DNA from: Rhizomys pruinosus
Taxonomy: Eukaryota > Chordata > Mammalia > Rodentia > Spalacidae
Assembly: GCA_009823505.1 (NCBI GenBank)
Contig: VZQC01011955.1
Location: 35,146-99,145 of the forward strand
Length of the DNA: 64,000 bases
Direction of reading: 5' to 3'
Position numbers and translations under genes: made by a program. Shown in pieces: positions 3,741-28,975 of this stretch. The notes beneath the pieces were generated by a model. The model saw only the letters and a program-made list of their open reading frames with translations. It did no database searches and was not told the DNA's origin. The first letter of the stretch is position 1. Each line of letters opens with the position of its first letter.

Positions 3741-3961
3741 TGAATTTTTAAAAAATCTTTTATGTGTATGAGTGTACTGCCTGCATGTGTTTAAGTGCAC
3801 CTGTGTTGTGCAGTGCCTAGGGAGGTCAGAAGAAGGCTTTGGATCCCCCAGAACTGGAGTTGAGGATGGTTGTTGGCTGTCATGTAGGTGCTGGGAATCT
3901 AACCTGGGTCTTCTGCAAGAGCAGTCAATGCTCTTAACTGCTGAGCCATCTCTCTAGCCCC
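3741..3961 (-). mobile_element. B2/B3-type SINE
   Basis: Antisense element ending gccatctctctagcccc. The large duplicated segment begins inside it, at about 3880. Confidence 0.88.
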
Positions 3962-3974
3962 CAAACTTGATATC

Positions 3975-4112
3975 TTTTTAAAAAATTATTTATTATTTTT
4001 ATTTTATGTGTATGAATGTATCGCCTGCATGTATGTTAAGTGTACCTGTGTCATGCAATGCCCATAGAGGACAGAAGAGGGCACCCGGATCCTCTGCAAG
4101 AACTTCAGTGCC
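3975..4112 (-). mobile_element. B2/B3 SINE fragment, left part
   Basis: 3' part of an antisense B2 with an internal deletion. It is interrupted by the B1 that follows and resumes at about 4287-4329. Confidence 0.75.
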
Positions 4113-4286
4113 CTAGCCGGGTGTGGTGGCCACATCTTTAATTCCAGCACTCGGGAGGCAGAGGCAGTCGGATCTTTGTGAGTTCAAGGCCAGCCTGGTC
4201 TACAGAGTGAGTTCCAGGACAGCTGGGACTACAGGGAGACCCTGTCTCCAAAAGACCAAAAAAAAAAAAAAAAGAAAAAAAAACAA
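4113..4286 (+). mobile_element. B1 SINE
   Basis: Sense B1 with an A-rich tail. Target site duplication aagaacttcagtgcc on the left (4098-4112) and an indel-altered copy on the right (about 4287-4303). Copy B keeps the duplication intact. Confidence 0.9.
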
Positions 4287-4329
4287 AAGAACGTCACAGT
4301 GCCTAACCACTGAGCTATCTCTCTAGCCC

Positions 4330-5139
4330 CTCAAACTGGAATCTTTAATGAAAACCCCAATCAGAGTGAAATGGACTTACTGAGGTCTACTGTGCCAACT
4401 TGTTGCCCACTGATGATATGGAGGCAATTAGCACACAGTTTCTACTCCTAAGAAATTACTAAATGAGGCTGATAAAGCAAATAATTCCTCGGTGTAGCAT
4501 GGCCCATATACTACAGCCCAGCCAGAGCCATTGGGGTGTACATGGGAAAGTCTGCAGGACATCTGAGGCAGTCAGTGTGTCAGTTAGATGGCGGTTGGAT
4601 AGAGTTTTGTCAACAGTGTTGATGCAGTGGTTTCCAGCTGAACTGTGGAAGACAGTGATATGACACTAGCTTTGTACCACCAAGATCCATGGGAAGACTT
4701 GGAGCTGGGACATCCAGTGTGCTTTGAGTTAGGAAGACTGGCCTGTACCAGTATGTTGGGTTAACTCAGAGCTGGAGAAACACAGTCATTCACTAGAAGA
4801 GTCGGAGGAGTTTAGATGGCAGATTGAGGACACAAAACAGGTTGAGGGTAGGGGGAGACCTGTGAGAGGAGCCGGGAAGGAGGGAGCAGGCCTTGCTTCC
4901 CTCTTTAGGTGGAACATGGCTGTCACAGTTATTGGTAGATACAGCTTGCTTTTTCTGATTAAGTTACTCCTTCCCTTGCTCCCTCCCTCCCTCCTTCTCT
5001 CTCTTCCCTTGGACAGGGTTTTGCCATATACCCCAGGTGTCCCTCTAACTTGTAATTCTCGTCTCCACTTCTCAGTGAGTCCCACTTTAAATTACAAATC
5101 TCTTGAAAGGAATACCTCGATTATATAGAAGAAAGTCTG
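4330..5139. other. Single-copy DNA within copy A
   Basis: No gene seen. It contains a pyrimidine-rich run (CCCT-rich, about 4972-5010). Overlapping short open frames on both strands near 4786-5128 come from this low-complexity sequence. Confidence 0.5.
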
Positions 5140-5160
5140 GCGGGCGTGGTGGCACACACC
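5140..5160 (+). mobile_element. B1 5' fragment
   Basis: Only the ggcgggcgtggtggcacaca head of a B1 is present before the sequence changes. Confidence 0.6.
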
Positions 5161-5165
5161 TTTTT

Positions 5166-5485
5166 TTTTCCCATTTAAATTACATTTATTTTAAAAATTG
5201 AAAACGTTCATACAGTAAAATGCATTCTTGTCATGTATAATTCTCTGACTTTTGACAAATGCATACAACACATAACTACAAACAAAATACAGAAAATTTT
5301 CATTATTAACAAAACAAAACAAAACAAAAACCTCTTGTGCCAATACTTTAACCCCTGATATTTACTGGTTTTTCTGCCATCCTTATTGCTTGGCCCTTTA
5401 CAGGAAACATGCAAATGAGATTTAACAGTCAAGAGCCATTTGAGTATGGTTTCTTCTACTTAGCAAAATGCATTTGAGATTTATC
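5166..5485. mobile_element. Ancient L1M-type 3' remnant
   Basis: Shares ttttgacaaatgcata and atttgagatttatccaag with old mammalian L1 3' sequence. No coding sequence. Family from memory; strand unresolved. Confidence 0.45.
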
Positions 5486-5487
5486 CA

Positions 5488-5549
5488 AGAGGCAGGGGTC
5501 TCCCTTTAGTTCCCAGATGGCCTGGAGCTCCTTCTATGTAACCAGGCTG
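5488..5549 (-). mobile_element. Partial B1
   Basis: Antisense B1 fragment (ggtctccctttag to ccaggctgg), immediately followed by a sense B1, giving a fold-back pair. Confidence 0.7.
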
Positions 5550-5725
5550 GTGACACAACACCTTTAATAATACAGCAACTTGGGAGGCAGAATCAGGTGG
5601 ATCTTTGTTGTTCAAGGCCAGACTGGTCCTACACAGTGAGTGAGTTCCGGCACAGCTGGGCACAGGGAGACCCTGTCTCACAAAAAAAAAAAAAAAAAAA
5701 AAAAAGAGAAGAAAAAAAAAAAAGA
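5550..5725 (+). mobile_element. B1 SINE, diverged
   Basis: Sense B1 (ttgggaggcagaatcagg ... gagaccctgtctca) with a long A-rich tail at about 5682-5725. Confidence 0.8.
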
Positions 5726-6121
5726 AAGGGTCTTGTTCTTGTTTTGAATTAAATTGTGTTGAAATTAGTTTTTTTTTCCACATTGACTTGGCTCATAATG
5801 AAAGTCTGTTGAATTATTCTCCAAGACATCACAACTATGAGTATATTTTTGGAATTAAGGTTATTTTAAGCAAAAGGTATATTTCCTGATGATGCACTAC
5901 TTTTTCTAGGTGTCTCCTGCCCATCTCCCACCACCACAAAATCAAAACCTCAGAACCAACATGCTGCTGTTTGACTAAGAAAATGGCAGCACGTGCAACA
6001 AGCAGAAACCTCTGCACCTATGGGGTGCTAATCAGCTTCTGGGGCATTTAAGTATTCCATCACATTCATTTGTCCACTTCTTGGATTCATCATTTAAAGA
6101 AGACTCCAGCTTGGGGAATTC
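5726..6121. other. Single-copy DNA present only in copy A
   Basis: Unique sequence between two B1s. The matching place in copy B (18355-18823) holds an unrelated L1 fragment next to an N. Confidence 0.7.
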
Positions 6122-6138
6122 TGATCTGTAAAGCTTTT

Positions 6139-6304
6139 TTTTTTTTTTTTTTTTGGTGTTTTTGAGACGCAGGGTCTCCCTTTTTTAGATTCCCCAGCTG
6201 GCCTGGAGCTCACTCTGTAGACCAGGCTGGCCTTGAAACTCAGAGATCCCCTGCCTCTGCCTCCCAAGTGCTAGGATTAAAGGCATGCCCCACCATGCCC
6301 CGGG
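6139..6304 (-). mobile_element. B1 SINE
   Basis: Antisense B1 with a perfect 17-bp target site duplication, tgatctgtaaagctttt (6122-6138 and 6305-6321). Copy B retains only the right duplication, which makes copy A the correct structure here. Confidence 0.95.
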
Positions 6305-6321
6305 TGATCTGTAAAGCTTTT

Positions 6322-7493
6322 AAACAAAACACCCTTTTATATGAATACCTCTTCTCCTCAGAAATAGAAACGACTTTCTGGTCTAAATAATGCATGGTGC
6401 TCTATTCTGTGAGGCAGGTTGGACACTATCAGCTCCTTCATCTGAGATGCTTGCTGAGCTCTGCTGAACGTGGAGCCTCTCTTGCAGAAGCTATGTTTCC
6501 CGGGGCACCAGGGCAGCCTCCTGCCAGCCTCTGATACTAATTGTGACTACCAAGCTTTCCTTGCCTTTTTACTTTGTTGAAAACTGCTTATTTTTCAACT
6601 CCCCGCGGCCCCCACCCCCCATTTCAGCCGTTAGCTTTTTTCACCAACTCGGAGACAGAATGCTCGGCATGAACTTTGCATCAGGATCAAACCCAGGATC
6701 CAGGACTGAAGCACCTCAGAATGCCTCTTGGAGCCGTTGTTTCCTCACTTGATAATGGAGATAAGAATACCTCCTTTCTGGAGATAACAGATGTCAGGTT
6801 AGGCTCTGTACACTTGAGTTTTTTCTCGAGACTTGGGGGGACATTAGTTTCTGAACCTGCTGGTGCAAGGCTACAGTACTGAGCAGAGACACACAAGTCC
6901 TGCACTGTCATCAACATATCCTCCTTCCCTCTAGCAGCGTCCAAACCTCCCAGGACACATTAGAAGTGCAGAGTCTCAGGCTCTGTTCTGCCTGTACAGC
7001 AACACAGACTCTTGAGAGGTGCACAGACGGGTGTGTCCTCATGCTGGTGCGTGCCTAAACGTGAGAACTGCGAAGGGCTGTGTTAGGTTATAAAAGAGGC
7101 CGAGCACCCCTAGCCCCCAGATAAAAAGGCACATGAGCTTAAGTAACTCCAAGAACATGTTTACTTCCATGGTGGGACTGCCAGCGTGAGCTGCCTGCAG
7201 ATAACGTGGTGGAACCAGACAGCATGGCAGGGGGCAGGGAGGGCAGAGAGAGGGCAGAGAGAGAGGGGCAGAGACGAGGGCGATGGCGGGTGGGGTCCAC
7301 CCATTTATAGCATGGGGGGGACCTCAGGTACAGGGGAAGAGGTCAGAAGATTGACAGCCTCTGGAGGAAATGGGGCCCTTGTGCCCCTTGGGATTCTGGA
7401 AGCCCAGACCTAACAGGTTGAGCACAGCGTGCACGTGTGTTTGTGTTGTGTGTGTGGTTGTGTGTGACACATATGTATTTTGCTGGTGTTGGG
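6322..7493. other. Single-copy DNA within copy A
   Basis: No gene recognised. It includes a GA-rich patch (about 7236-7275) and a GT-rich run (about 7430-7467). The 60-85 codon open frames here lack any family resemblance. Confidence 0.5.
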
Positions 7494-7507
7494 TGATAAT
7501 CTTTCCT

Positions 7508-7696
7508 TCTCTTTTTTTCTTTTTTTTTTTCTTTCTTTTTTTTTTTTTTTTTTGTCTTTTTGAGACAGGGTCTCCCTTTAGTCGCCAGCTGCCTTGGATC
7601 TTGCTATGTAGACCAGGCTGGCCTTGAACTCACAGAGTACTGCCTGCATCTGCTTCCTGAGTACTGGGATTAAAGGCTTGCGCCACCACACCCGAC
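7508..7696 (-). mobile_element. B1 SINE
   Basis: Antisense B1 with a long T-rich end. Target site duplication gataatcttt at 7494 and 7697. Confidence 0.88.
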
Positions 7697-7895
7697 AGAT
7701 AATCTTTATTTCTGGTCCAGATAAAAAGAGGTACCACAGAGGCACCCTGTCTGGTCAGGTTAGTTGTTCTCTTTCTTTGTCAAGCTGGGTCTTTGGGACA
7801 AGGATTTAGGAATAAATAGATAATCCATTCCAAAATTCTGCTCATTTCTGAGGATTTGAAGGTGTCTTGAATCTCAGCCTTAGAAATAGCAGCTG

Positions 7896-8060
7896 CTTGG
7901 CGTGGTGGCTGCACACCTTTAATCCTAGCACTCGGGAGGCAGAGGCAGGTGGATCTTTGTGAGTTCAAGGCCACGCCTGGTCTACAGAGTGAGTTCCAGG
8001 ACAGCTGGGGCTACAGGGGAGACCATCTCGAAAGACCAAAAAAAAAAAAAAAAAAGAAAA
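7896..8060 (+). mobile_element. B1 SINE
   Basis: Sense B1 with a poly(A) tail. Target site duplication agaaatagcagctg at 7882-7895 and 8061-8074. Confidence 0.92.
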
Positions 8061-8074
8061 AGAAATAGCAGCTG

Positions 8075-8590
8075 TGTGGCCTCCCTCAGTGGGCTTGTCT
8101 GGGTGGCAGGCCTTCCTGTCGTGGCCACAGACATGTCCGTCTGTAAGTCTGCCCACTTTTTTGAATTCTTAGAAAAAGCAATAAATCTCTCCCTTTGTTT
8201 TCCTGTACCTTTTCTAAACACGATTTCTTAAAATGCTTTGGGCTGCCCCAGTACCTTGTACTTCTTTTTTCCCTCTGAGCATCCTTCTCCCCCGGCCATG
8301 TTGCTGCCAGTCTGCCACGTGTCTGACCGTCTTCAATTCAGGCTTAACCCTGCATGGCTCACGGCTTTTCCCCTCTCCCCTCTGCTCTCCTCGAGGCAGC
8401 TGATGACATTCGCAGCTTGCCAGCCCTGAGGATTTTCTTTAAATTCTAATAAAATTGTCCTAAAGCTTCCATTTGTGGCTCCATTCTTAAATTCTTTCGT
8501 GAATGAGACGAAGGACTCTCTAGGGGACGCTCTAGGGTCACATGCCCATGAGTCAGAAGTTTTTCTTATTTGAGACAACTTACCATTCTC
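8075..8590. other. Single-copy DNA within copy A
   Basis: No feature supported beyond short open frames. Confidence 0.5.
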
Positions 8591-8597
8591 TGTTTAT

Positions 8598-8727
8598 TTT
8601 TTTATTTCTTGTTTGGATTTTGACACAGGTGTCCAAGTAGCCCAGCTGGCCTTGAACTTCTGATCCTCGCACGCCTTCTCCATCGTAAATTCACAAATTA
8701 CAGGCAGGTACCACCATGCCTGTGCTT
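8598..8727 (-). mobile_element. Old B1-like (7SL-derived) SINE
   Basis: Diverged antisense copy: gacacaggtgtccaagtagc, ctggccttgaac and ggtaccaccatgcc remain. Confidence 0.65.
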
Positions 8728-9910
8728 TTAACTCTCTTTGGATCTCAGAAGGCAGTAGGAGGAGTCTTGTGTGTGATGAGGGGAGATTTCACCAGGATGC
8801 TGTTAGTCTCGGGGGAAGCACTTCTGAAAGTGGCCATTCAGTTCTGATCTTTCAGCATTTGGAGACATTTGGGAGTCCAAAACAGATACAAACTACTTAA
8901 AGGCTAGAAATCTATGTCGTGGAGGGTCTCCCTGACAGGTGTCTTCAGCCTTGGCCTCTCAATTTGCTTCCGTTACCAGGGCTGGCAGTTGGTTAGATAC
9001 TGCCCTCTAGTGGGCGACTGGTCTCACTAGCCCCTGATGGGAGCCCAGAGGCCTGTAACTGCTTCAAGCAGTCTTCTTTGGGATACTGACATAATGTCTA
9101 CAGTTTGCTTTTCTGTTTCTTTCTCCTGCCCCCCAACCTCTCTCACCCACAGTGAGTCTTCATCAACCCTGTGCTGTTTTAGGTGACACAAGCATGTTCT
9201 CAGAACTACCCACTTGTGTGGACTAGGGGTAAGTATTTGGCACTAGTTAGGCTCTGCTAATACACGTGGCATGTCCCACCATTAAGTTTTGTTTTAAACT
9301 GTTAGAAAATTATTCAGGCAAACATTTCAATTAAAAAATAAAATTTTCAAACTGACAATCCTGCCATTTACCAGGCGAATAATTAATTTATACGTTATTC
9401 TGTAGACCGCATCCCATCTTATTTTCTTACTTTTCTCTTTCCTCGTTCTCTGTTCTCTTAATTCTATTCACTTACCCCAAGAACAGGAGAACAGAGGAAA
9501 AAAAAAGAAAACTAGACAGTGATAGGCCCTGGGCCCGGCTGACTCAGCCCTTGGACGGGATAACCTCAGGGCTGCCTACAGTTATTCTGAACAACCTAAC
9601 CTGTTTCCTTGATGGCTCACCCTGGTCATTTTAATGCCACCTACTTACTCACCTGACCACTTCTTTTTGTCTCTTAAAATTCAATAATCTGCAGGCTCTA
9701 ATTCCCCTCCCTTTTGCTTTTAACAATCTTCTTTATTTTCTGCAGAAGAGAAAGAAAAAAGTGCGTAAATATTGTCTGAGTTGAGAGTATGTTTTCTTGG
9801 ATCTTGGCTGGGGGTCCCTCAACATTTTGGGATTTGATTATGTTTTACTTGATGATTAATAAGGCTCTTCCATATTAGAACTATTAATCCTAGGCCTGCC
9901 ATTAAAGTTA
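8728..9910. other. Single-copy DNA with candidate regulatory motifs
   Basis: AT-rich and pyrimidine-rich single-copy DNA, well preserved between the two copies. It includes a CTCF-like site (8999-9014), a palindromic ggctgactcagcc (about 9537-9549) and a polypyrimidine tract ending ttttctgcag (about 9745). No exon can be demonstrated. Confidence 0.45.
8999..9014 (-). promoter_or_regulatory. CTCF-like motif
   Basis: Reverse complement reads cccactagagggcagt, close to the CTCF core CCASYAGRKGGCRS. Same site in copy B at 21649-21664 with one change. Motif match only. Confidence 0.5.
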
Positions 9911-9917
9911 AATTAAG

Positions 9918-10131
9918 AAAATAAATTTATATTTTATGTGCATCAGTATATTGGCCTTGCCATGTGTGTAGGTGCACGCATGTCATGCAATGCCGGCAAG
10001 TCAGAAGGGTGTGTGATTCCCTGGAAACTGGGTTATGACGGTTGTTAGCCGCCACGTGTGGATATGGAAACTACCTGGGTCCTCACGCAAAGAGCGGTGC
10101 TCTCTACCACTGAGCTATCTCTCTAGCCCCA
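9918..10131 (-). mobile_element. B2/B3-type SINE, indel-damaged
   Basis: Antisense element. Copy B (22557-22772) is cleaner, and much of the damage here looks like consensus error. Confidence 0.85.
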
Positions 10132-10160
10132 AATAAAATTTTTTTTATTCATTCAAGATT

Positions 10161-10285
10161 TTGCTATTGTTGTTTTAGGCAGAGTCTCAGTGTGTAGCCC
10201 TGGCTGGCTGGGGACTCTCTATATAGACAGGCTGGCCTTGACTCAGAGATCTGAGATCAAGGTATGCATCACCATATCTAGCTCA
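10161..10285 (-). mobile_element. Old B1-like SINE
   Basis: Diverged antisense copy with ggcagagtctcagtgtgtag and caggctggccttgac. Confidence 0.65.
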
Positions 10286-10330
10286 TTCAGCATTTTACTC
10301 AGCACTTTCATCTGTTTTCGTTCCACTCTT

Positions 10331-10498
10331 TTTTTTTAATTTTTTTTCTTATGCAGCTTGACCCCTGCCGTGCAATCCGTCGGAGGCAAGAGGGTCTGGA
10401 TTCCGACATGGTCTAATTGGTTCAAACCGGTTCTCTGCCGGCGTGTGGCGCTGGATCCTGCAAGAGCGTCGTGCCTCTAAGCTAGGTATTCAGCCCCT
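10331..10498 (-). mobile_element. B2/B3 SINE present only in copy A
   Basis: T-rich start, then a heavily deleted antisense B2 body (gtgcaatcc, cggaggca, cctgcaagagcg) ending cagcccc. Flanked by cgttccactctt at 10319-10330 and 10499-10510. Copy B has a single cgttccactctt and no SINE, an empty-site arrangement. Confidence 0.85.
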
Positions 10499-10510
10499 CG
10501 TTCCACTCTT

Positions 10511-10912
10511 ATTCACCCTTAAAGTGGAGATCAAGGTTCTGTATGAAGTTTGTTTTAGAGGGGCTTCTGCTTTCACAGTTTAAAGGAGGGAAGAGAGATA
10601 TGGATGCCAATTAGCCTTAGAATTTCCCGAAGGCTCTGAAACAAACCAGGCAAGGTGATGGGGAGGTTATTACTTTAGTTGAGTCTGCAGGGAATGGGTG
10701 TTGTGAATAGCTGACCTTTCATGTGGGAATGGAATAATGAGAAGGAGCGAACAGCATGTCAACCCAGCCAAGAGCCTCTGGGCAGGAGGGTTAGCAAGCA
10801 CACAGGCCTATGGTGGGTGTCAGTGAGGAGCGACTGGGGGACTACTGAGGTCACAGCAAGACAAGAGGAGCAGAGGGACATCTCAGAAAGGCAGGGAGGC
10901 ATGGCAGGGTTC
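10511..10912. other. Single-copy DNA within copy A
   Basis: No gene recognised. The first 60 bp differ sharply from copy B (damaged consensus). Confidence 0.45.
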
Positions 10913-10951
10913 TCTGTCTCTCTCTCTCTTCTCTCTCTCGTCTCTCCTCTC
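10913..10951. repeat. (CT)n microsatellite
   Basis: Interrupted CT run. Copy B has a longer, more regular version at 23405-23446. Confidence 0.9.
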
Positions 10952-11024
10952 TCTGCTGAGGATTGAACCCAGGTCTTCTGCATCCTAGGCAAGTGTTCTA
11001 CCATTGAGCTACCCCTCAGCTCCA
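10952..11024 (-). mobile_element. ID SINE
   Basis: About 73 bp matching the reverse complement of the tRNA-Ala-derived ID core (gaggattgaacccagg ... gcaagtgttctaccattgagc). Not a functional tRNA. Confidence 0.75.
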
Positions 11025-11059
11025 GTTCATACCTTAGCTGTGATTAGAAGGATTCTATG

Positions 11060-11208
11060 GCCGGGCGTGGTGGCGCACGCCTTTAATCCTAGCACTTGGG
11101 AGGCAGAGGCAGGTGGATCTTTGTGAGTTCAAGGCTACCCTGGTCTACATAGCAAGTTCCAGGACAGCCTGAGCTACAGGGAAACTCTATCTCAAAATGA
11201 CCAAAGAA
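11060..11208 (+). mobile_element. B1 SINE
   Basis: Full-length sense B1 with an intact gccgggcgtggtggcgcac head. Imperfect target site duplication, agaaggattctat on the left and agaaggactgtac on the right. Confidence 0.92.
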
Positions 11209-11270
11209 AAAGAAGGACTGTACGGATCTGACATACTCATATGATCTCATACCATTGGAAAGTCATTACG

Positions 11271-11287
11271 GCCGCCCTCTGGTGAAT
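11271..11287 (-). promoter_or_regulatory. CTCF-like motif
   Basis: Reverse complement attcaccagagggcggc fits the CTCF core. Counterpart in copy B at 23767-23783. Confidence 0.45.
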
Positions 11288-11336
11288 GGACTATGGGGAA
11301 CGAGAGGCAGTGGGACGATCTATGATAATGAAGATA

Positions 11337-11492
11337 TGTTGTTTTTGTCTGTTTGAGACAGAGTCTATGTAGCCTAGACTGACTTTGAATTCACTGTATA
11401 AGCACAGTCTGGTGTCAAATCCATATATACCGCAGGCTGGCGCTTTGAATTCAAAGTGATCCCCCTGCCTCAACTTCCCAGTGTGCATGAAA
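11337..11492 (-). mobile_element. Old B1-like SINE
   Basis: Antisense remnant (tgtttgagacagagtctatg ... ccccctgcctcaacttccca) with indel damage relative to copy B. Confidence 0.5.
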
Positions 11493-12178
11493 GAAGATTT
11501 TTGTGGCAGTCCAGAGAAAATATGCCAGTGGCTGAGATGCGGGTGAGTTATTGGGGTGAGAATGGTAGGGGAGCCCTGGTCAGACATCAGAGGAGGACCT
11601 CAGGGGACTTGCATCTTCGGAATAGAAGGATTGGCGCTATCTGCCTTTCAGTATGGAGTACATTGTTTTAGGGAGGAAGATTGTGTTCATCAGCCCTCCA
11701 GCAGCCCTGAGATAATGTCTTAGGGAGAGGAAAGCTTTGCTTTGGCACGGCTTCGGAGGCTACGGTCCTGTTCTGTGAACTCTGTTACTTGGTGCTGTAT
11801 GACAAATGCGACAAGTACATTGTAGGGGAGACATGCGGTGCGGGAGGAGACAGAAAGAAGCAGGGGTCCCAACAGCCCCTTCAAGAACACAGCAGGTCCC
11901 TAACTTCCCATGCGAAGGAAGTTCCCAGAAAAACTGCATCTTAAAATTGAACATGCAGCTGGGGCCTGGTGGCACACACAACAACAACAAACAAAAAAAA
12001 CTGAACAGCTACAAAGGTGGATCAACTGATTAGAACTTCAGTGATTTGTGGAGAGTTTGGACTGTTGTAGGCTCAAACTTTATTACAATTTATCCTGGTC
12101 CATCTTTAGTCCCCCTAAATAGCCACTCCTTGCCACCTTGTTTCTGAATTAACATCCTGTGATTAACAGATCAAAACT
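11493..12178. other. Single-copy DNA within copy A
   Basis: No gene seen. A truncated B1 head followed by CAA repeats lies at about 11960-12000. Confidence 0.45.
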
Positions 12179-12352
12179 CGCCTTTAACCCTAGCAATTGG
12201 GAGGCAGAGGCAGGCTGATCCCTGTGAGTTCAAGGCTAGTCTGTCTGGTCTATAAAGCCTGTTCTAGGACAGCTGGACGACAGGGAAGACCCTGTTTCAA
12301 AAAGACCAAAACAAACCAAACCAACAACAAAACAAAAAAAACAAACAAAAAA
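12179..12352 (+). mobile_element. B1 SINE, 5' truncated
   Basis: Sense B1 lacking about the first 20 bp of the head, with an acc/aac-rich A tail. Confidence 0.82.
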
Positions 12353-13080
12353 CCATTTTGGAATGATTAACTTAGCAGAACACCAGGTTCCACCAACATC
12401 AGACAGCATCTGAGGCCCAGAGCCGAGACTTCTCTTTTGCTGCGTCTGCCTACTTGACGTTCTCACCCATGTATTTGAAAAATGTCTTGATTTAATGCTT
12501 TCTTTGTTCTGTTATACATCTAAAAACTTCATGAAACCGTTACCACATTGGAGCATGAAATTTGAGGTAACCTGAATCTGTGTTCCTGGGGACGAGTCAC
12601 CATGTTTGGCTCCAGAATAAACTATCTCTTATGCCCTTTGAAGTAAGAGTTATAGCGTTTTGCATTAACATACTAGATATTACTGTATGTCTTTACTTGG
12701 GTTAATGGACCACCACAGTAGGAATTCTCAGTATTCAGCACTTTTCCTACCTTCCCAGGCCTGCTTTCTTCCCTGCACCCTGTCTCAGTGAAAGGCAGCT
12801 CTACCTCCTGCTTGCAAATTGTACTGTGGAGGTCTAACTCTCCTTGCTGGCCTTGGAAGCTTCTAGAAGATTGAGTCTGGGCTTTTTAGCCTGGAGTTCC
12901 CTGGCGTATTGTGTACCATCCCTGGGTGGAGCAGGTGGGCTGGGTCCTGCTTTTACAGCTAACGGGAGAGCAAGACTTTGTTTTCAGTTTGTCTCGGAGT
13001 GATTCTACTTGGAGGAACCACAGAGACAACATGGATTTGGGGAGAATGCTTTAGAAAGCAGAACAGTGCCGTGGAACATG
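12353..13080. other. Single-copy DNA within copy A
   Basis: No repeat or exon recognised. Confidence 0.5.
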
Positions 13081-13198
13081 TGTCCTTCCTTCTTCCTTCC
13101 TTCCTTTCCTATCCTTCCTTCCTCGTTCCTTCCTTCGTCTTCCTTCCTTCCTTCCGGTTCCTTCCTCTTTTCTTTATTTCCTTTCTTCTTTCTTTCTA
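13081..13198. repeat. (TTCC)n microsatellite, interrupted
   Basis: Irregular TTCC run. Copy B has a pure ~110-bp array at the same place (25576-25686). Confidence 0.92.
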
Positions 13199-13204
13199 AT
13201 TTTG

Positions 13205-13546
13205 TATGTATGTGTATATATGAGTGGTGTCTGTGTGCATGTGGCATATGTCCGTGTGTGCATCTACGTGTGTGGGTACACACATCCATGTGCACGTGTG
13301 GAGGTCAAAGGAGGCTGCTGAGTGCTCTGCTCTTTCATCTTACTCTCATTCCCTTGGGACAGGGTCACTCATTGAACTGGGCTAAGGGGCCAAAGCAAGC
13401 CCCCGCTGACCTTCCTGTCTTCATTCACCTCCCCAAGTGCTAGATTCGGGTTGACATATCAGCTTTCTTACACGTGATGTCTGGAAACAGACTTGTGTCT
13501 CATGCTTGAAAGCCAAGGTCTCATCTGCTGAGCTGTCTCCCCAGGC
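13205..13546 (-). mobile_element. B4-type composite SINE
   Basis: Antisense element with GT-rich tail, gacagggtcactcattgaac, a B1-like middle and tgctgagctgtctccccagg at its tRNA-derived head. Confidence 0.7.
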
Positions 13547-13548
13547 CA

Positions 13549-15230
13549 TGTGCTTATTTGAAAGCAAAAATCAAGGCAGAAGTTGCTTGTCCGGTGGTGC
13601 TTGTTAGTGAATCCCTTAAAAACCATGTTGGATTCATCATACCGAAACATGTAATCTGAAGATTCATCTCACAATGTGGCATTGCCTTCTCCTTACAAAC
13701 CAGGAGAGAGTCGGTTGGTACAGAGCACTGGGAGGCTGGCAGCCATTCAGTTCTTTACTTTAGGTTTTAGAGAATCATTTCTGCCTCCCCGTCACCTTCC
13801 TCCCCCTTCTTTAATTGTGTGCTTCCGCACTTACATATTGAAAACACCTAATCCCCAGTGTGATGCTGCTTGGAGACGAGTCCTTTGGGAGATAATTAAG
13901 TTTAGCATCATTCATGAGGAGGGTGGGGATCATCGAATAGATTAATGTCCTTATAGAAAGAGGAAGAAAGAGATCTGCGTTCCCGTTCTTTATTATACGA
14001 AGGACTCAGCAACAAGGCAGCACACTGGAGAGAGAGCTTCATCAGGAACTGAGTCTCCCCTCCCTTGATCCAGCCCCCTCTGTTGTTTAAGTCACTCACA
14101 CTTGTTTTTGGTCCTCAGCAGTGTTCAAGCGTCCCATGGTTAGGTTGTCTTCTCTCTTCTCCCCCCTCCCCTGCCCTCTTCGTCTCACCATGGCCCTTCT
14201 TTCCCTTCCTTCTTTCCTTCCTTCTCCTCTCCCTCCCTTTTCATTTCTCTATGTCATACCTATCCATCGTTTTCCCAATTTCATGGTTTTTCCGGGGATC
14301 TCTACGTATTTAGGCTATGGTAAGTAGCTCAGATTTCATGAACATAGGTGAGTGCAGAGTGCTATCCTGAGTGTAACAGTCACTATAGAGCAGCTGTGAC
14401 AACTTGCAAGAGAATTCTCCCCCACCCCCAAGATGGAGCCTATTGATTATGTTGATAGTTCTTCATAGGAGAAAGGTGCTGGAGAGGGCTGTGAGCTTTG
14501 CCTGAGGTCCTGGCAGCCCCCTCTGACACTCCCAGCTAGATGGTTCTACCTTGATTGTATATGGTCTTGTGATCTTAAGAGGTGCTAGTGTATGTGTATA
14601 GACTGCAAATGCTTAACAGAGAAAAGACTCCATCTATGTAGGTTATGTGGGAAGTGCATCCATGCGGGACTTCAGTATACAGCGTGCTTTGGGATACCCA
14701 TATGTCCTATACAAGTAGCATGCCTCATCATACTCTAATAAGCCAGATAAACTCTTTGTCCCCCAAGTTGGACACTGGTGGAATTGTATGTTGATTTGAC
14801 ATTGGTGCCCTTTAAGGAAAGGGTAAATGTTTGCTTATGACTTCCCTGGGAAAGAGTTCCCTCAACAATAGAATACAAGGTAAATTGATTTTCTTTCTGG
14901 ATTGGGGACTTGCCCATCAGATGAAGGCTGATTTATTCTTCAAGCATCTTGATTCTTTTTAGTATATATCTTGGGCATATTCCCTATTCTAAATCTTTGC
15001 AACAAAACAACAAAATTCCATTTCTATTTACTTGGAGAATGGCTTTGGCCTGTCATTGGCTGGGATGTGAATATGCCTGAGAACCAGAAGATGGAGAAGA
15101 TTGGGATATAACAGAGCTTGGTGGTTAAGGTTAACCTGGGGAGGGCCATTTTTAACATGTTGAAGGTATGATGAAGGGCAGCTGGACATTTGAAAATGAA
15201 GAACCATGTTTGAATCCCACTCCTGGCATT
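13549..15230. other. Single-copy DNA within copy A
   Basis: No gene recognised. It includes a pyrimidine-rich low-complexity patch at about 14140-14250. Short open frames there are compositional. Confidence 0.5.
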
Positions 15231-18353: not shown

Positions 18354-18354
18354 N
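18354..18354. other. Single N, second join
   Basis: Lies in the poly(A) tail of a B1, immediately before a sequence that copy A does not have. Confidence 0.9.
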
Positions 18355-18975: not shown

Positions 18976-20170
18976 TGATCTGTAAAGCTTTTAAACAAAA
19001 CACCCTTTTATATGAATACCTCTTCTCCTCAGAAATAGAAACGACTTTCTGGTCTAAATAATGCATGGTGCTCTATTCTGTGAGGCAGGTTGGACACTAT
19101 CAGCTCCTTCATCTGAGATGCTTGCTGAGCTCTGCTGAACGTGGAGCCTCTCTTGCAGAAGCTATGTTTCCCGGGGCACCAGGGCAGCCTCCTGCCAGCC
19201 TCTGATACTAATTGTGACTACCAAGCTTTCCTTGCCTTTTTACTTTGTTGAAAACTGCTTATTTTTCAACTCCCCGCGGCCCCCACCCCCCATTTCAGCC
19301 GTTAGCTTTTTCACCCTGGAGACAGAATGCTCGGCATGAACTTTGCATCAGGATCAAACCCAGGATCCAGGACTGAAGCACCTCAGAATGCCTCTTGGAG
19401 CCGTTGTTTCCTCACTTGATAATGGAGATAAGAATACCTCCTTTCTGGAGATAACAGATGTCAGGTTAGGCTCTGTACACTTGAGTTTTTTCTCGAGACT
19501 TGGGGGGACATTAGTTTCTGAACCTGCTGGTGCAAGGCTACAGTACTGAGCAGAGACACACAAGTCCTGCACTGTCATCAACATATCCTCCTTCCCTCTA
19601 GCAGCGTCCAAACCTCCCAGGACACATTAGAAGTGCAGAGTCTCAGGCTCTGTTCTGCCTGTACAGCAACACAGACTCTTGAGAGGTGCACAGACGGGTG
19701 TGTCCTCATGCTGGTGCGTGCCTAAACGTGAGAACTGCGAAGGGCTGTGTTAGGTTATAAAGAGGCCGAGCACCCCTAGCCCCCAGATAAAAAGGCACAT
19801 GAGCTTAAGTCACTCCAAGAACATGCTTTACTTCCATGTGGGACTGCCAGCGTGAGCTGCCTGCAGATAACGTGGTGGAACCAGACAGCATGGCAGGGGG
19901 CAGGGGCAGAGAGAGGGGCAGAGAGAGAGGGGCAGAGCGAGGGCGATGGCGGGTGGGGTCCACCCATTTATATCCATGGAGTGGGACCTCAGGTACAGGG
20001 GAAGGGGTCAGAAGATTGACAGCCTCTGGAGGAAATGGGCCCCTGTGGGCCCCTTGGGATTCTGGGAAGCCCAGACCTAACAGGTTGAGCACAGCGTGCA
20101 CGTGTGTTGTGTGTGTGTGTGTGTGTGTTACACATATGTATTTTGCTGGTGTTGGGTGATAATCTTTCCT
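18976..20170. other. Single-copy DNA within copy B
   Basis: Counterpart of 6322-7493, with a GA-rich patch (about 19895-19935) and (GT)n (about 20100-20130). Confidence 0.5.
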
Positions 20171-20171
20171 T

Positions 20172-20355
20172 CTCTTTTTCTTTTTTTTTTTCTTTCTTTT
20201 TTTTTTTTTTTTTGTCTTTTTGAGACAGGGTCTCCCTTTAGTCCCAGCTGCCTTGGATCTTGCTATGTAGACCAGGCTGGCCTTGAACTCACAGAGTACG
20301 GCCTCAGCGCGTCCTGAGTACTTGGTGATTTATAGGCTTGGCCCACACACCCACA
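20172..20355 (-). mobile_element. B1 SINE, indel-damaged
   Basis: Counterpart of 7508-7696. Its last 60 bp are strongly altered compared with copy A. Confidence 0.82.
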
Positions 20356-20550
20356 GATAATAGTTATTCTGTCCAGATAAAAGGAGGTACCGCACAGAGG
20401 CGAGCCCGTCTGGTCATGTTATTGTTTCTACTTCTTCTTTGTCAAGCTGGTTCTGTTGGGACAAGGATTTAGGGAATAAATAGATATCAATCCAAAGATC
20501 TGCTCAATTTCTGTGAGGATTGAAGTGTCCTTGAATCTCACCTTAAAAAT

Positions 20551-20720
20551 AGCACTCTTGCGGTGGTGCAAACACCTTGTAAGCCCTAGCATTCGGGAGG
20601 CATAGGCAGGTGGATCTTTGTGATTCAAGGCCGGCCTTCGAGCAGAGTGAGTTCCGACAAGCTGGGGTCCTAAGGGAGCCATCCTCGGAAATACCAAAAA
20701 AAAAAAAAAAGAAAAAGAAA
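20551..20720 (+). mobile_element. B1 SINE, indel-damaged
   Basis: Counterpart of 7896-8060. The body is full of small deletions while copy A is near consensus. Confidence 0.82.
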
Positions 20721-21259
20721 TAGCAGCTGTGGTGGCCTCCCTCAGTGGGCTTGTCTGGGTGCAGGGCCTTCCTGTCTGGCCACAGACATGTCTCTGTAAG
20801 TCTGCCCACTTTTTTGAATTCTTCAGAAAAGCATAATCTCTCCCTTTGTTTTTCCTGTACCTTTTCTAAACACGATTTCTTTAATGCTTTGGGCTGCCCC
20901 AGTACCTTGTACTTCTTTTTCCCTCTGACTCTTCCTTCTCCCGGCCATGTTGCTGCCAGTCTGCCACGTGTCTGACCGTCTTCATTCAGGCTGTAACCCT
21001 GCATGGCTCACGGCTTTTCCCCTCTCCCCTCTGTACTCCTCCTCGAGGCAGCTGATGACATTCCCAGCTTGCCAGCCCTGAGGATTTTTCTTTAAATTCT
21101 AATAAAATTGTCCTAAAGCTTCCATTTGGGTCCATTCTTAAATTCTTTCGTGAATGAGACTAAGGACTCTCTAGGGGACGCTCTAGGGTCACATGCCCAT
21201 GAGTCAGAAGTTTTTCTTATTTAGATACAACTTACCATTCTCTGTTTATTTTTGTTTAT

Positions 21260-21380
21260 TTCATTGTTTATTTTGACACAGGGTCTCAAGTAGCCCAGGC
21301 TGGCCTTGAACTTCTGATCCTCCAGCCTTCTCCATCTAAATTCACAAATTACAGGCAGGTACCACCATGCCTTGCTTTAT
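21260..21380 (-). mobile_element. Old B1-like SINE
   Basis: Counterpart of 8598-8727. It reads closer to B1 (gacacagggtctcaagtagc, caggctggccttgaac). Confidence 0.68.
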
Positions 21381-22556
21381 CCTCTCTTTGGATCTCAGAA
21401 GGCAGTAGGAGGAGTCTTGTGTGTGATGAGGGGAGATTTCACCAGGATGCTGTTAGTCTCGGGGGAAGCACTTCTGAAAGTGGCCATTCAGTTCTGATCT
21501 TTCAGCATTTGGAGACATTTGGGAGTCCAAAACAGATACAAACTACTTAAAGGCTAGAAATCTATGTCGTGGAGGGTCTCCCTGACAGGTGTCTTCAGCC
21601 TTGGCCTCTCAATTTGCTTCCGTTACCAGGGCTGGCAGTTGGTTAGATACCGCCCTCTAGTGGGCGACTGGTCTCACTAGCCCCTGATGGGAGCCCAGAG
21701 GCCTGTAACTGCTTCAAGCAGTCTTCTTTGGGATACTGACATAATGTCTACAGTTTGCTTTTCTGTTCTTTCTCCTGCCCCCCAACCTCTCTCACCAGTG
21801 AGTCTTCATCAACCCTGTGCTGTTTTAGGTGACACAAGCATGTTCTCAGAACTACCCACTTGTGTGGACTAGGGGTAAGTATTTGGCACTAGTTAGGCTC
21901 TGCTAATACACGTGGCATGTCCCACCATTAAGTTTTGTTTTAAACTGTTAGAAATTATTCAGGCAACATTTCAATTAAAAAAATAAAATTTTCAACTGCA
22001 ATCCTGCCATTTACCAGGCGAATAATTAATTTATACGTTATTCTGTAGACCACATCCCATCTTATTTTCTTACTTTTCTCTTTCTCGTTTCTGCTTTAAT
22101 TCTATTCACTTACCCCAAGAACAAGGAAACAGAGGAAAAAAAAAGAAAACTAGACAGTGATAGGCCCTGGGCCCGGCTGACTCAGCCCTTGGACGGGATA
22201 ACCTCAGGGCTGCCTACAGTTATTCTGAACAACCTAACCTGTTTCCTTGATGGCTCACCCTGGTCATTTTAATGCCACCTACTTACTCACCTGACCACTT
22301 CTTTTTGTCTCTTAAAATTCAATAATCTGCAGGCTCTAATTCCCCTCCCTTTTGCTTTTAACAATCTTCTTTATTTTCTGCAGAAGAGAAAGAAAAAAGT
22401 GCGTAAATATTATTGTCTGAGTTGAGAGTATGTTTTCTTGGATCTTGGCTGGGGGTCCCTCAACATTTTGGGATTTGATTATGTTTTACTTGATGATTAA
22501 TAAGGCTCTTCCATATTAGAACTATTAATCCTAGGCCTGCCATTAAAGTTAAATTA
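21381..22556. other. Single-copy DNA within copy B
   Basis: Counterpart of 8728-9910, with the same candidate regulatory motifs. Confidence 0.45.
21649..21664 (-). promoter_or_regulatory. CTCF-like motif
   Basis: Reverse complement cccactagagggcggt. Counterpart of 8999-9014. Confidence 0.5.
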
Positions 22557-22772
22557 AGAAAATAATTTATTATTTTATGTGCATCAGTATATTGCCTGCA
22601 TGTGTGTAGGTGCACGCATGTCATGCAATGCCCGCAGAGTCAGAAGGAGTCAGATTCCCTGAAACTGGGGTTATGGACGGTTGTTAGCCGCCACGTGGGT
22701 GGTGGGAATGGAACCTTGGTCCACTGCAAGAGTAGCTGGTGCTCCTAACCACTGAGCTATCTCTCTAGCCCC
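22557..22772 (-). mobile_element. B2/B3-type SINE
   Basis: Counterpart of 9918-10131, closer to consensus. Confidence 0.88.
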
Positions 22773-22803
22773 AAATTAAAATTTTTTTTATTCATTCAAG
22801 ATT

Positions 22804-22930
22804 TTGCTATTGTTGTTTTGAGGCAGAGTCTCAGTGTGTAGCCCTGGCTGGCTTGGGACTCTCTATATAGACCAGGCTGGCCTTGAACTCAGAGATCTGA
22901 GATCAAAGGTATGCATCACCATATCTAGCT
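22804..22930 (-). mobile_element. Old B1-like SINE
   Basis: Counterpart of 10161-10285. Confidence 0.68.
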
Positions 22931-22962
22931 CATTCAGCATTTTACTCAGCACTTTCATCTGT

Positions 22963-22974
22963 TCGTTCCACTCT
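22963..22974. other. Empty site of a SINE insertion
   Basis: A single cgttccactctt here corresponds to the duplicated target site around the SINE at 10331-10498 in copy A. Confidence 0.8.
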
Positions 22975-23404
22975 TATTCACCACTTACAAAGTGGAGATC
23001 AAGGTTCTGTTTTTGACTCTGAAGTTTTCATGTTTTTTATGCAGATGGGTAGGGCTTCTGCTTTCACAGTTTAAAGGAGGGAAGAGAGATATGGATGCCA
23101 ATTAGCCTTAGAATTTCCCGAAGGCTCTGAAACAAACCAGGCAAGGTGATGGGGAGGTTATTACTTTAGTTGAGTCTGCAGGGAATGGGTGTTGTGAATA
23201 GCTGACCTTTCATGTGGGAATGGAATAATGAGAAGGAGCGAACAGCATGTCAACCCAGCCAAGAGCCTCTGGGCAGGAGGGTTAGCAAGCACACAGGCCT
23301 ATGGTGGGTGTCAGTGAGGAGCGACTGGGGGACTACTGAGGTCACAGCAAGACAAGAGGAGCAGAGGGACATCTCAGAAAGGCAGGGAGGCCATGGCAGG
23401 GTTC

Positions 23405-23446
23405 TCTGTCTCTCTCTCTGTCTCTCTCTCTGTCTCTCTCTCTCTC
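23405..23446. repeat. (CT)n microsatellite
   Basis: Regular TCTCTC/TGTCTC run. Confidence 0.92.
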
Positions 23447-23520
23447 TGCTGAGGATTGAACCCAGGGTCTTCTGCATCCTAGGCAAGTGTTCTACCATTG
23501 AGCTACACCCTCAGCTCCAG
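23447..23520 (-). mobile_element. ID SINE
   Basis: Counterpart of 10952-11024. Confidence 0.75.
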
Positions 23521-23553
23521 TTCATACCTTAGCTGTGATTAGAAGGATTCTAT

Positions 23554-23706
23554 GGCCGGGCGTGGTGGCGCACGCCTTTAATCCTAGCACTTGGGAGGCA
23601 GAGGCAGGTGGATCTTTGTGAGTTCAAGGCTACCCTGGTCTACATAGCAAGTTCCAGGACAGCCTGAGCTACAGGGAAACTCTATCTCAAAATGACCAAA
23701 AGAAAA
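23554..23706 (+). mobile_element. B1 SINE
   Basis: Counterpart of 11060-11208. Confidence 0.92.
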
Positions 23707-23766
23707 AGAAGGACTGTACGGATCTGACATACTCATATGATCTCATACCATTGGAAAGTCATTACG

Positions 23767-23783
23767 GCTGCCCTCTGGTGAAT
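23767..23783 (-). promoter_or_regulatory. CTCF-like motif
   Basis: Counterpart of 11271-11287, with one C-to-T change. Confidence 0.42.
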
Positions 23784-23834
23784 GGACTATGGGGAATGAG
23801 AGGCAGTGGGACGATCTATGATAATGAAGATATT

Positions 23835-23988
23835 TTGTTTTTGTCTGTTTGAGACAGAGTCTATGTAGCCTAGACTGACTTTGAATTTACTGTATAGCAC
23901 AGTCTGGTGTCAAATTCACTATATAGCCTAGGCTGGCTTTGAATTCAAAGTGATCCCCCTGCCTCAACTTCCCAGTGTGCATGAAAGA
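23835..23988 (-). mobile_element. Old B1-like SINE
   Basis: Counterpart of 11337-11492, with a more regular body (tatatagcctaggctggc). Confidence 0.55.
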
Positions 23989-24675
23989 AGATTTTTGTGG
24001 CAGTCCAGAGAAAATATGCCAGTGGCTGAGATGCGGGTGAGTTATTGGGGTGAGAGTGGTAGGGGAGCCCTGGTCAGACATCAGAGGAGGACCTCAGGGG
24101 ACTTGCATCTTCGGAATAGAAGGATTGGCGCTATCTGCCTTTCAGTATGGAGTACATTGTTTTAGGGAGGAAGATTGTGTTCATCAGCCCTCCAGCAGCC
24201 CTGAGATAATGTCTTAGGGAGAGGAAAGCTTTGCTTTGGACACGGCTTCGGAGGCTACGGTCCTGTTCTGTGCACCTGTTACTTGGTGCTGTATGACATA
24301 ATGCACCAAGTACATTGTAGTGGGAGCATGCGGTGCGGGAGGAGACAGAAAGAAGCAGGGGTCCCAACAGCCCCTTCAAGAACACAGGTCCCTAACTTCC
24401 CATGCGAAGGAAAGTTCCCAGAAAAACTGCATCTTAAAATTGAACATGCAGCTGGGCCTGGTGGCACACACAACAACAACAAACAACAAAAAACTGAACA
24501 TGCTACAAAGGTGGATCAACTGATTAGAACTTCAGTGATTTGTGGAGAGTTTGGACTGTTGTAGGCTCAGAACTTTATTACAATTTATCCTGGTCCATCT
24601 TTAGCCCCCTAAATAGCCACTCCTTTCCCACCTTTGTTTCTGAATTAACATCCTGTGATTAACAGATCAAAACTC
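23989..24675. other. Single-copy DNA within copy B
   Basis: Counterpart of 11493-12178, including the truncated B1 head and CAA repeat at about 24455-24495. Confidence 0.45.
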
Positions 24676-24851
24676 GCCTTTAACCCTAGCAATTGGGAGG
24701 CAGAGGCAGGCTGATCCCTGTGAGTTCAAGGCTAGTCTGTCTGGTCTATAAAGCCTGTTCTAGGACAGCTGGGACTACAGGGAGACCCTGTTTCAAAAAG
24801 ACCAAAACCAAACCAAACCAACAACAACAACAAAAAAAAACAAACAAAAAA
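24676..24851 (+). mobile_element. B1 SINE, 5' truncated
   Basis: Counterpart of 12179-12352. Confidence 0.82.
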
Positions 24852-25575
24852 CCATTTTGGAATGATTAACTTAGCAGAACACCAGGTTCCACCAACATCA
24901 GACAGCATCTGAGGCCCAGAGCCGAGACTTCTCTTTTGCTGCGTCTGCCTACTTGACGTTCTCACCCATGTATTTGAAAAATGTCTTGATTTATGGCTTT
25001 CTTTGTTCTGTTACTCTAAAAACTTCATGAAACCGTTACCACATTGGAGCATGGAATTTGAGGTAACCTGAATCTGTGTTCCTGGGGTACAGTCACTCAT
25101 GTTTGGCTCCAGAATAAACTATCTCTTATGCCCTTTGAAGTAAGAGTTATGCTTTTGCATTAACATACTAGATTACTGTATGTCTTTACTTGGGTTAATG
25201 GACCACCACAGTAGGAATTCTCAGTATTCAGCACTTTTCCTACCTTCCCAGGCCTGCTTTCTTCCCTGCACCCTGTCTCAGTGAAAGGCAGCTCTACCTC
25301 CTGCTTGCAAATTGTACTGTGGAGGTCTAACTCTCCTTGCTGGCCTTGGAAGCTTCTAGAAGACTGAGTCTGGGCTTTTTAGCCTGGAGTTCCCTGGCGT
25401 ATTGTGTACCATCCCTGGGTGGAGCAGGTGGGCTGGGTCCTGCTTTTACAGCTAACGGGAGAGCAAGACTTTGTTTTCAGTTTGTCTCGGAGTGATTCTA
25501 CTTGGAGGAACCACAGAGACAACATGGATTTGGGGAGAATGCTTTAGAAAGCAGAACAGTGCCGTGGAACATGTG
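24852..25575. other. Single-copy DNA within copy B
   Basis: Counterpart of 12353-13080, with no gene seen. Confidence 0.5.
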
Positions 25576-25686
25576 TCCTTCCTTCCTTCCTTCCTTCCTT
25601 CCTTCCTTCCTTCCTTCCTTCCTTCCTTCCTTCCTTCCTTCCTTCCTTCCTTCCTTCCTTCCTTCCTTCCTTCCTTCCTTCCTTCC
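25576..25686. repeat. (TTCC)n microsatellite, pure
   Basis: About 27 uninterrupted TTCC units. Any long open frame here is a compositional artefact (Pro-Ser-Phe-Leu or Lys-Glu-Gly-Arg repeats). Confidence 0.98.
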
Positions 25687-25724
25687 TCTTTCTTTATTTC
25701 CTTTCTTCCTTTCTTTCTAATTTT

Positions 25725-26050
25725 GTATGTATGTGTATATATGAGTGGTGTCTGTGTGCATGTGGCATATGTCCGTGTGTGCATCTACGTGTGTGGGTAC
25801 ACACATCCATGTGCACGTGTGGAGGTCAAAGGAGGCTGCTGAGTGCTCTGCTCTTTCATCTTACTCTCATTCCCTTGGGACAGGGTCACTCATTGAACCT
25901 GGAGCTAGGGGCCAGCAAGCCCCCGCTGACCTTCCTGTCTTCACCTCCCCACAGTGCTGGGGTTATACATACATTTTAACACGTGGGGATGTGAACACAG
26001 GTTTGCATGCTTGCAAAGAAGGGCTCTTACTGCTGAGCTGTCTCCCCAGG
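25725..26050 (-). mobile_element. B4-type composite SINE
   Basis: Counterpart of 13205-13546, with a cleaner middle (cattgaacctggagctagg). Confidence 0.75.
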
Positions 26051-27710
26051 CCATGTGCTTATTTGAAAGCAAAAATCAAGGCAGAAGTTGCTTGTCCGGT
26101 GGTGCTTGTTAGTGAATCCCTTAAAAACCATGTTGGATTCATCATACCGAAACATGTAATCTGAAGATTCATCTCACAATGTGGCATTGCCTTCTCCTTA
26201 CAAACCAGGAGAGAGTCGGTTGGTACAGAGCACTGGGAGGCTGGCAGCCATTCAGTTCTTTACTTTAGGTTTTCAGAGAATCATTTCTGCCTCCCCGTCA
26301 CCTTCCTCCCCCTTCTTTAATTGTGTGCTTCCGCACTTACATATTGAAAACACCTAATCCCCAGTGTGATGCTGCTTGGAGACGAGTCCTTTGGGAGATA
26401 ATTAAGTTTACATGACATCATGAGGAGGGTGGGGATCATCATAGATTAATGTCCTTATAGAAAGAGGAAGAAAGAGATCTGCGTCCCCGTTCTTTATTAT
26501 ACAAGGACTCAGCAACAAGGCAGCACACTGGGGAGAGAGCCTTCATCAGGAACTGAGTCTCCCCTCCCTTGATCCAGCCCCTCTGTTGTTTAAGTCACTC
26601 AGCACCTGGTATTTTGTTACAGCAGTCCCAATGGATTAGGTGTCTTCTCTCTTCTCCTCCCCTCCCCTCCTCTTCTCTCACCTCCCTTCTTTCCCTCCTT
26701 CTCTTCCTTCCTTCTCCTCTCCCTCCCTTCTTTCTCCATGTTCTACCTCTTTTCCCAATTTCATGGTTTTTCCAGGGGATCTCTACAGTATTTAGGCTAT
26801 GGTAAGTAGCTCAGATTTCATGAACATAGGTGGTGCAGAGTGCTATCCTGAGTGTAACAGTCACTATAGAGCAGCTGTGACAACTTGCAAGAGAATTCTC
26901 CCCCCACCCCCAAGATGGAGCCTATTGATTGAATGTTGATATTCTCTCATAGGAGAAAGTGCTGGAGAGGGCTGTTGAGCCTTTGCCTGAGGTCCTGGCA
27001 GCCCCCTCTGACACCTCCCAGCTAGATGGTTCTACCTTGATTGTATATGGTCTTGTGATCTTAAGAGGTGCTAGTGTATGTGTATAGACTGCAAATGCTT
27101 AACAGAGAAAAGACTCCATCTATGTAGTTATGGGGAAGTTGTCATCCATGCTGAGACTTCAGTAGTACAGCTGCTTTGGGATCACCCATATTCCTATAAG
27201 TAACTCCTCACTCATACTCTATAAGCCAGATAAACTCTTTGTCCCCCAAGTTGGACACTGGTGGAATTGTATGTTGATTTGACATTGGTGCCCTTTAAGG
27301 AAAGGGTAAATGTTTGCTTATGACTTCCCTGGGAAAGAGTTCCCTCAACAATAGAATACAAGGTAAATTGATTTTCTTTCTGGATTGGGGACTTGCCCAT
27401 CAGATGAAGGCTGATTTATTCTTCAAGCATCTTGATTCTTTTTAGTATATATCTTGGGCATATTCCCTATTCTAAATCTTTGCAACAAAACAACAAAATT
27501 CCATTTCTATTTACTTGGAGAATGGCTTTGGCCTGTCATTGGCTGGATGTGAATATGCCTGAGAACCAGAAGATGGAGAAGATTGGGATATAACAGAGCT
27601 TGGTGGTTAAGGTTAACCTGGGGAGGGCCATTTTTAACATGTTGAAGGTATGATGAAGGGCAGCTGGACATTTGAAAATGAAGAACCATGTTTGAATCCC
27701 ACTCCTGGCA

Positions 27711-27715
<5 letters not shown>
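26051..27715. other. Single-copy DNA within copy B
   Basis: Counterpart of 13549-15230, with a pyrimidine-rich patch at about 26643-26740. Confidence 0.5.

Positions 27716-27757
<42 letters not shown>
27716..27757. repeat. (CT)n microsatellite, pure
   Basis: About 20 uninterrupted CT units. Confidence 0.95.
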
Positions 27758-27760
<3 letters not shown>

Positions 27761-27892
27761 TTTGCCTGCAAATGAATATAAGAAAACAATTTTACTTAGT
27801 TGTTATGGAGATTGAATCAATAATCCTAGAGAAGAAGTACCAGGTAGTGACACTGGCCTCGAACACATGGAAACCCTCCCTACCCCTTTTTT

Positions 27893-27961
27893 ACAATGCT
27901 GGGGATTGAATCCAGGTTCTTGGATGGAGAAGTGTTTCACCACAGATCTATACCCCCAGTT
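27893..27961 (-). mobile_element. ID-like SINE remnant
   Basis: Counterpart of 15443-15512. Confidence 0.5.
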
Positions 27962-28975
27962 CGTGGCTTTTTGTGACAGTTTCACTTGGAATGCCATGTT
28001 CTCCTGTCTCCACCTCACAAGTATTTTGCCCAGCAGAACTTCACCAGATGATGGTCCCTGCCCCATTCCATCTAGAGGCACAGTCACCTTTTCTATTTTA
28101 TCTTCCAAACAATATTTTAAGAGCAGATATTATTACACTTGGTTTTTTGGAACCTGTGTCTTTCATAGGGAAGAGAACTTAGGAGATGCTCAAGATGTTT
28201 CTGTGGAACAATGAGAGAACAAATGAATGTCTCCATGGTCAGGATCAAGGAGAGGCTTGGTTCAGAGGTCGGCATCCATCCTCCGGTCCTCTTTGTCTCT
28301 CGTACTGGTTCTGTTCTTTTATCTTTTGGTGCTTTCCGAGGGATTCTCAATTGCATTCCTAGTTAAGAATATATATTTGGAGAATACATCTTAGACCTAA
28401 GCTCCTTAGAGACAGACTTTTGACTTCCCTGCAAGTGGCTCGGATAATCACTGCATTTGCCGAGCTGTGAGAATCAACCCTTAAATGAACTGCCTTTCAT
28501 TCCAAATGTCAGGAATTTTCAGACAGGTGGAACATGGATCCTGTGCAGTTGCCATGGCAACTTCGGCACTGCTGATGCTCTGTCCTGTCTTCTCTCCCAG
28601 CCCCAACACTCACACACTTCACTCAATACATACTAATCTATTCTTTGATGGTTTCAAGACAAAGAACTCCAGGTAGCGGCATTCTATGAAATGGATATAA
28701 AGATAACAGGATATATGTTAGTCGCCCTTCTGTTATTAAAACAAACACCTAACAGTTTATAAAGAGAAAAGATCTGTTTTGCTCCCAGTTTCAGGACTTC
28801 TGGTTAACGGTCCCCAGTCAGCTGACTGAATTGCCTTCAAAGCGGAAATGTGAATCAGAGCAAAACTGCTCACCTCAGGGCCAGCGGCACAAAAGGGTTA
28901 AGGAAACTGGGGTCCCACAATCTCCTTCAGAGATGCATCCTCAGTGGATGGCCTAAAGACTCCCACCAGGCCTCA
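27962..28975. other. Single-copy DNA at the end of copy B
   Basis: Counterpart of 15513-16532. Confidence 0.5.

Follow-up and report, generated by a model that had tools for sequence, protein, structure and literature searches.

Results

A colinear repeat with a single N at its join

The window analysed here, a stretch of 64,000 bases, holds a segment of about 12.5 kb in two head-to-tail copies, which we refer to as copy A and copy B. Self-BLAST of the window returned the two copies as three colinear pieces, 3880-5688 with 16542-18353 (96.3%), 6146-10333 with 18821-22978 (94.2%) and 10498-16532 with 22963-28975 (94.5%). Only two Ns occur in the whole window, one at the join and one inside copy B. 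The main features are:

3880-16532, plus strand: copy A, where the left-hand contig ends, running leftward into unique DNA (self-BLAST)
16533, no strand: single N at the join of copies A and B (self-BLAST)
16534-16541, plus strand: eight bases after the N (2 of 8 match 3872-3879)
16542-28975, plus strand: copy B, running rightward into unique DNA (self-BLAST)
18354, no strand: second single N, inside copy B at an A-run belonging to a B1-like SINE

The DNA is rodent-like, and the SINE names used throughout (B1-like, B3/B2-like) are presumptive.

The last base of copy A directly adjoins the N at 16533, and the nine bases that end it (16524-16532, caggcctca) recur at 28967-28975, after which copy B enters unique DNA. 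Unique flanking sequence was found by self-BLAST to the left of copy A only and to the right of copy B only, which is the geometry of an overlap. A first-pass annotation had described the colinear repeat, its one-N junction, the shared ending and the one-sided flanks, and all of these were recovered here; the second N, a non-homologous stretch (5689-6145 vs 18355-18820) and an insertion confined to copy A (10334-10497) are additional to it. The homology of copy B begins 9 bases past the N, not directly at it, and the eight bases in between, which match neither flank, are probably poor contig-end sequence.

A real tandem duplication of ~12.5 kb, very recent and with its junction falling in a gap of the assembly, whose copies later acquired a SINE (A) and perhaps an L1 (B), would also leave copies that are colinear and head-to-tail, and the 3-base match between the end of copy A and the start of copy B (both TCA) would suit end joining. 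However, the contiguity across the junction that such a duplication needs is interrupted by the N at 16533; the N also hides the junction itself, which leaves this reading some room. For the gap to coincide with the breakpoint would take either chance or a break of the assembly at that very point. One of the window's two Ns marks the join, and the second is inside copy B. The ends of the segment also lie in unlike repeats (3880 falls within a B3-like SINE at 3747-3961, while no SINE match extends over 28975), so repeat-mediated recombination is not indicated. We regard a real duplication as very unlikely.

Error and divergence between the copies

The homologous parts of the two copies were aligned block by block, which gave 11,733 aligned columns (eight copy B bases, 22963-22970, are counted in two blocks owing to a target-site repeat, with negligible effect). 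Across these columns we found 109 substitutions vs 340 indel events, 265 of the latter being one base long, and the earlier description of sparse SNPs with many 1-base indels thus held up. In natural mammalian divergence, substitutions normally outnumber indels. A forced global alignment (907 substitutions) was rejected because it paired the non-homologous 5689-6145 and 18355-18820 and the insertion.

The differences were strongly clustered: 35 of 122 intervals of 100 columns held none (3.1 expected), the count per interval had a variance of 16.0 at a mean of 3.7, and the longest identical runs reached 441 bases. Within 25 columns of an indel there were 97 substitutions in 6181 columns, with a transition share (25/97) that could not be told apart from one third (p = 0.13), whereas away from indels we counted 12 substitutions in 5552 columns (0.22%; interval 0.11-0.38%), 9 of which were transitions (Fisher p = 0.0013 for the two shares). 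The 25-column split was our own choice, and the fully isolated substitutions (n = 11, 9 of them transitions) gave the same picture. Since the transition shares differ near and away from indels, two populations of differences are mixed here, patchy error and true divergence of ~0.22%. One-base indels lay outside homopolymers in 139 of 265 cases, and difference events were enriched in repeats about 1.8-fold without being confined to them (133 of 449 events vs 1996 of 12,250 columns). Simple repeats, too, were of unequal length in the two copies, as with the TCCT arrays (13083-13166 in A, 25576-25715 in B). Most differences between A and B, chiefly the indels, look like sequence error and not like haplotype differences. 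The clean-column divergence, with its predominance of transitions, fits two alleles; so low a value is also compatible with a real recent duplication.

SINEs as a gauge of sequence error

Profile searches of the window yielded 43 B1-like and 46 B3-like matches, and indels against the family consensus were compared in the 75 elements that had 90 or more body columns, the other 14 of the 89 being shorter and dropped. Elements of up to 10% divergence carried 17.2 indels per kb inside the repeated segment (n = 7) vs 4.0 outside (n = 14; p = 0.03), those of up to 15% carried 17.9 (n = 12) vs 5.5 (n = 30; p = 0.005), and all 75 elements together carried 27.3 (n = 23) vs 12.8 (n = 52; p = 0.0008), these p values being somewhat too small given the dependence between paired A and B elements. 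Among the nine A/B pairs of SINEs in which both members reached the 90-column minimum, more indels were found in A for 5 and in B for 3, with one tie. Each copy is thus the worse one in places, a pattern that agrees with a remark, in one part of PMC7649008, on the copy left unpolished. The error excess explains the indels without deciding between an artefact and a duplication, since a real recent duplication would be equally poorly polished.

An insertion present in copy A only

One difference between the copies is a discrete insertion with its target site:

10318-10510, minus strand: SINE-like insertion (10334-10497; B3/B2-type, badly read) with its 13-base target-site repeats

The inserted sequence lies between the 13-base repeats 10318-10330 and 10498-10510, and copy B has the empty site intact at 22963-22975. 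Against a B3-type profile the insertion showed 22% substitutions and 10 indels over 130 body columns, and it resembles a young element whose sequence was poorly read. We call it SINE-like because of weak matches to SINEs of the window and to the B3 profile. An Rfam search at E up to 1 over 10300-10540 gave nothing for the insertion, and its reading as a pseudogene of an unknown small RNA was dropped.

The insertion bears on whether both copies could come from the same haplotype and be kept apart by sequence error alone, the homotype class of false duplication defined in a section of PMC9516828. Most A/B differences do behave like error, and error-rich copies are shared with that class. Yet a clean insertion in A with target-site repeats and an intact empty site in B, and likewise the 12 clean-column substitutions, 9 of them transitions, argue for two different molecules; on both counts this locus departs from the published class, in which error occurs without true differences between the copies. 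We consider a homotype origin highly improbable. Real differences at an allelic level are thus present, in the clean columns as in the insertion, although copy-specific insertions would be compatible with a real duplication too.

A non-homologous stretch next to the second N

Between the first and second self-BLAST pieces the copies hold unrelated sequence, 457 bases of other DNA in A and 466 bases of L1 in B:

5689-6145, plus strand: 457 copy A bases that B does not match, made up of an A-run, unique DNA and the left of the two target-site repeats around a B1-like SINE
6123-6321, minus strand: that B1-like SINE, intact in copy A and flanked by its two 16-base target-site repeats (6123-6138, 6306-6321)
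18355-18820, minus strand: L1 piece, covering the end of ORF1 and the part beyond it, that abuts the T-run of the B1-like SINE and is absent from A

The frame 18471-18857 matched Pfam PF17490 (4.5e-14), and the L1 piece matched L1 ORF1p structures (best 4.1e-26). Copy B retains only the right 16-base repeat of the B1-like SINE (18977-18992), and to the left of the SINE's T-run its sequence is L1 up to the second N. The stretch 18354-18820 may be a 5'-truncated L1 that inserted into the SINE A-tail and lost its remainder in the gap, or a misfill of the gap that runs from the SINE T-run into L1 from elsewhere. An A-tail insertion is what the orientation would suggest, the 5' side of the L1 facing the A-tail, but it would require a single N to represent kilobases, and copy B also lacks 457 bases of flanking DNA. 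A misfill would account for 466 bases standing for the 457 of copy A, for the single N that bounds them and for the loss in copy B of a target-site repeat that copy A kept, but the L1 part is an open frame and not noise. The near-equal lengths and the single N lean towards misfill, the open frame and the orientation towards insertion, and we hold the chances of the two to be about even.

Coding content and other features of the window

Pfam searches covered 25 of 88 listed open frames, a scope that may overlook short exons. In 20 frames (9 inside the copies, 11 outside) there was no match at E up to 0.05; the other 5 yielded the L1 match and a PRELI-like one. With none of the 9 within-copy frames matching a Pfam domain, and the L1 piece as the exception, gene duplication is not indicated by the frames covered. 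The PRELI-like match (48271-48585, minus strand) scored 24.6 bits against a Pfam cut-off of 27 and is perhaps a decayed processed pseudogene.

A full-length U3 snoRNA match (30256-30472, plus strand; 171.7 bits) is followed by an A-rich AAAAC tail and has a 12-base A-rich word on both sides, and is probably a retrotransposed copy. Weak tRNA-like Rfam matches at corresponding places of the two copies (10955-11012 and 23447-23507, minus strand; 29.1 and 31 bits) are probably a tRNA-derived SINE. Within a B3-like SINE, a 17-base unit is repeated about four times at 2582-2651; shorter, two-copy forms occur in the SINEs at 29847, 33443, 35268 and 56708, and unit number seems to vary within the family. 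At 56604-57146, two oppositely oriented B3-like SINEs are arranged as an inverted repeat (76% identity over 570 columns).

Discussion

The repeat is very probably a false heterotype duplication, that is, two overlapping haplotype contigs left unmerged. The first-pass annotation had read it in this way, and its reading is supported, though not proven, by the geometry and by the gap symbol at the join. We suggest that, when this diploid, rodent-like genome was assembled, the two haplotypes of one 12.5 kb stretch were kept in separate contigs, and that a scaffolder then set these head to tail with one N, leaving the overlap unmerged. Copy A would represent one haplotype, closing the left contig on its right side, and copy B the other, in two pieces (16534-18353 and 18355 onward). 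The haplotypes would differ by ~0.2% in substitutions, in simple-repeat length, by the SINE inserted in A and perhaps by an L1 inserted in B; it is plausible that structural heterozygosity such as these insertions kept the contigs apart. The extra one-base indels would mainly be sequence error, uncorrected because reads could not be assigned between two near-identical copies.

Known artefacts resemble this locus closely. False heterotype or haplotypic duplications from heterozygous overlap, as set out in parts of PMC9516828 and PMC7203741, likewise have adjacent copies on one scaffold with a gap, slightly different haplotypes and more errors than elsewhere; there the class is defined by depth, k-mers and linked reads, whereas here it is judged from sequence alone. 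A gap between adjacent copies is given as a mark of false duplications in the relevant passage of PMC9516828, and the N at 16533 is such a gap between a duplicated pair on one scaffold. Unmerged overlaps or 'negative gaps' (BiSCoT, PMC7649008; PMC8389630; PMC7736779), in the sections that describe them, have the same order of contig 1, Ns and contig 2 repeating the shared region, are usually allelic and have one copy unpolished by short reads. According to a portion of PMC7649008, scaffolders can write overlapping contigs consecutively with a run of N between them, one human assembly held 515 such regions, usually allelic, and the alignment of short reads tends to favour one copy, leaving the other unpolished. 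The scaffolder in that portion writes 13 Ns, so the one N here implies another tool or setting; a literature search on single-N gaps returned no direct source tying a single N to such an artefact. What the sequence shows is the geometry, the Ns and the differences with their patchy spread; the tools that produced the join, like the allelic status of A and B, are what we infer.

Some observations count against a false duplication: the homology of copy B starts 9 bases past the N and not at it, and two retroposon differences are a high number for a 12.5 kb stretch with 0.2% divergence. The TCA match at the ends could also arise in an end-joined real duplication. Were the locus a genuine tandem duplication, its copies would be 0.2% diverged and would already have received retroposon insertions of their own, in a rodent-like lineage whose L1s and SINEs are very active, which we think decidedly unlikely.

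With the copies taken as alleles of a falsely duplicated stretch, the divergence to quote is ~0.2%, not the 4-6% of the raw alignment. The locus also offers a worked example of how error can be told from divergence with two copies and the surrounding SINEs alone. Left uncorrected, the stretch would be taken for a recent segmental duplication, and its indels would be read as rapid divergence.
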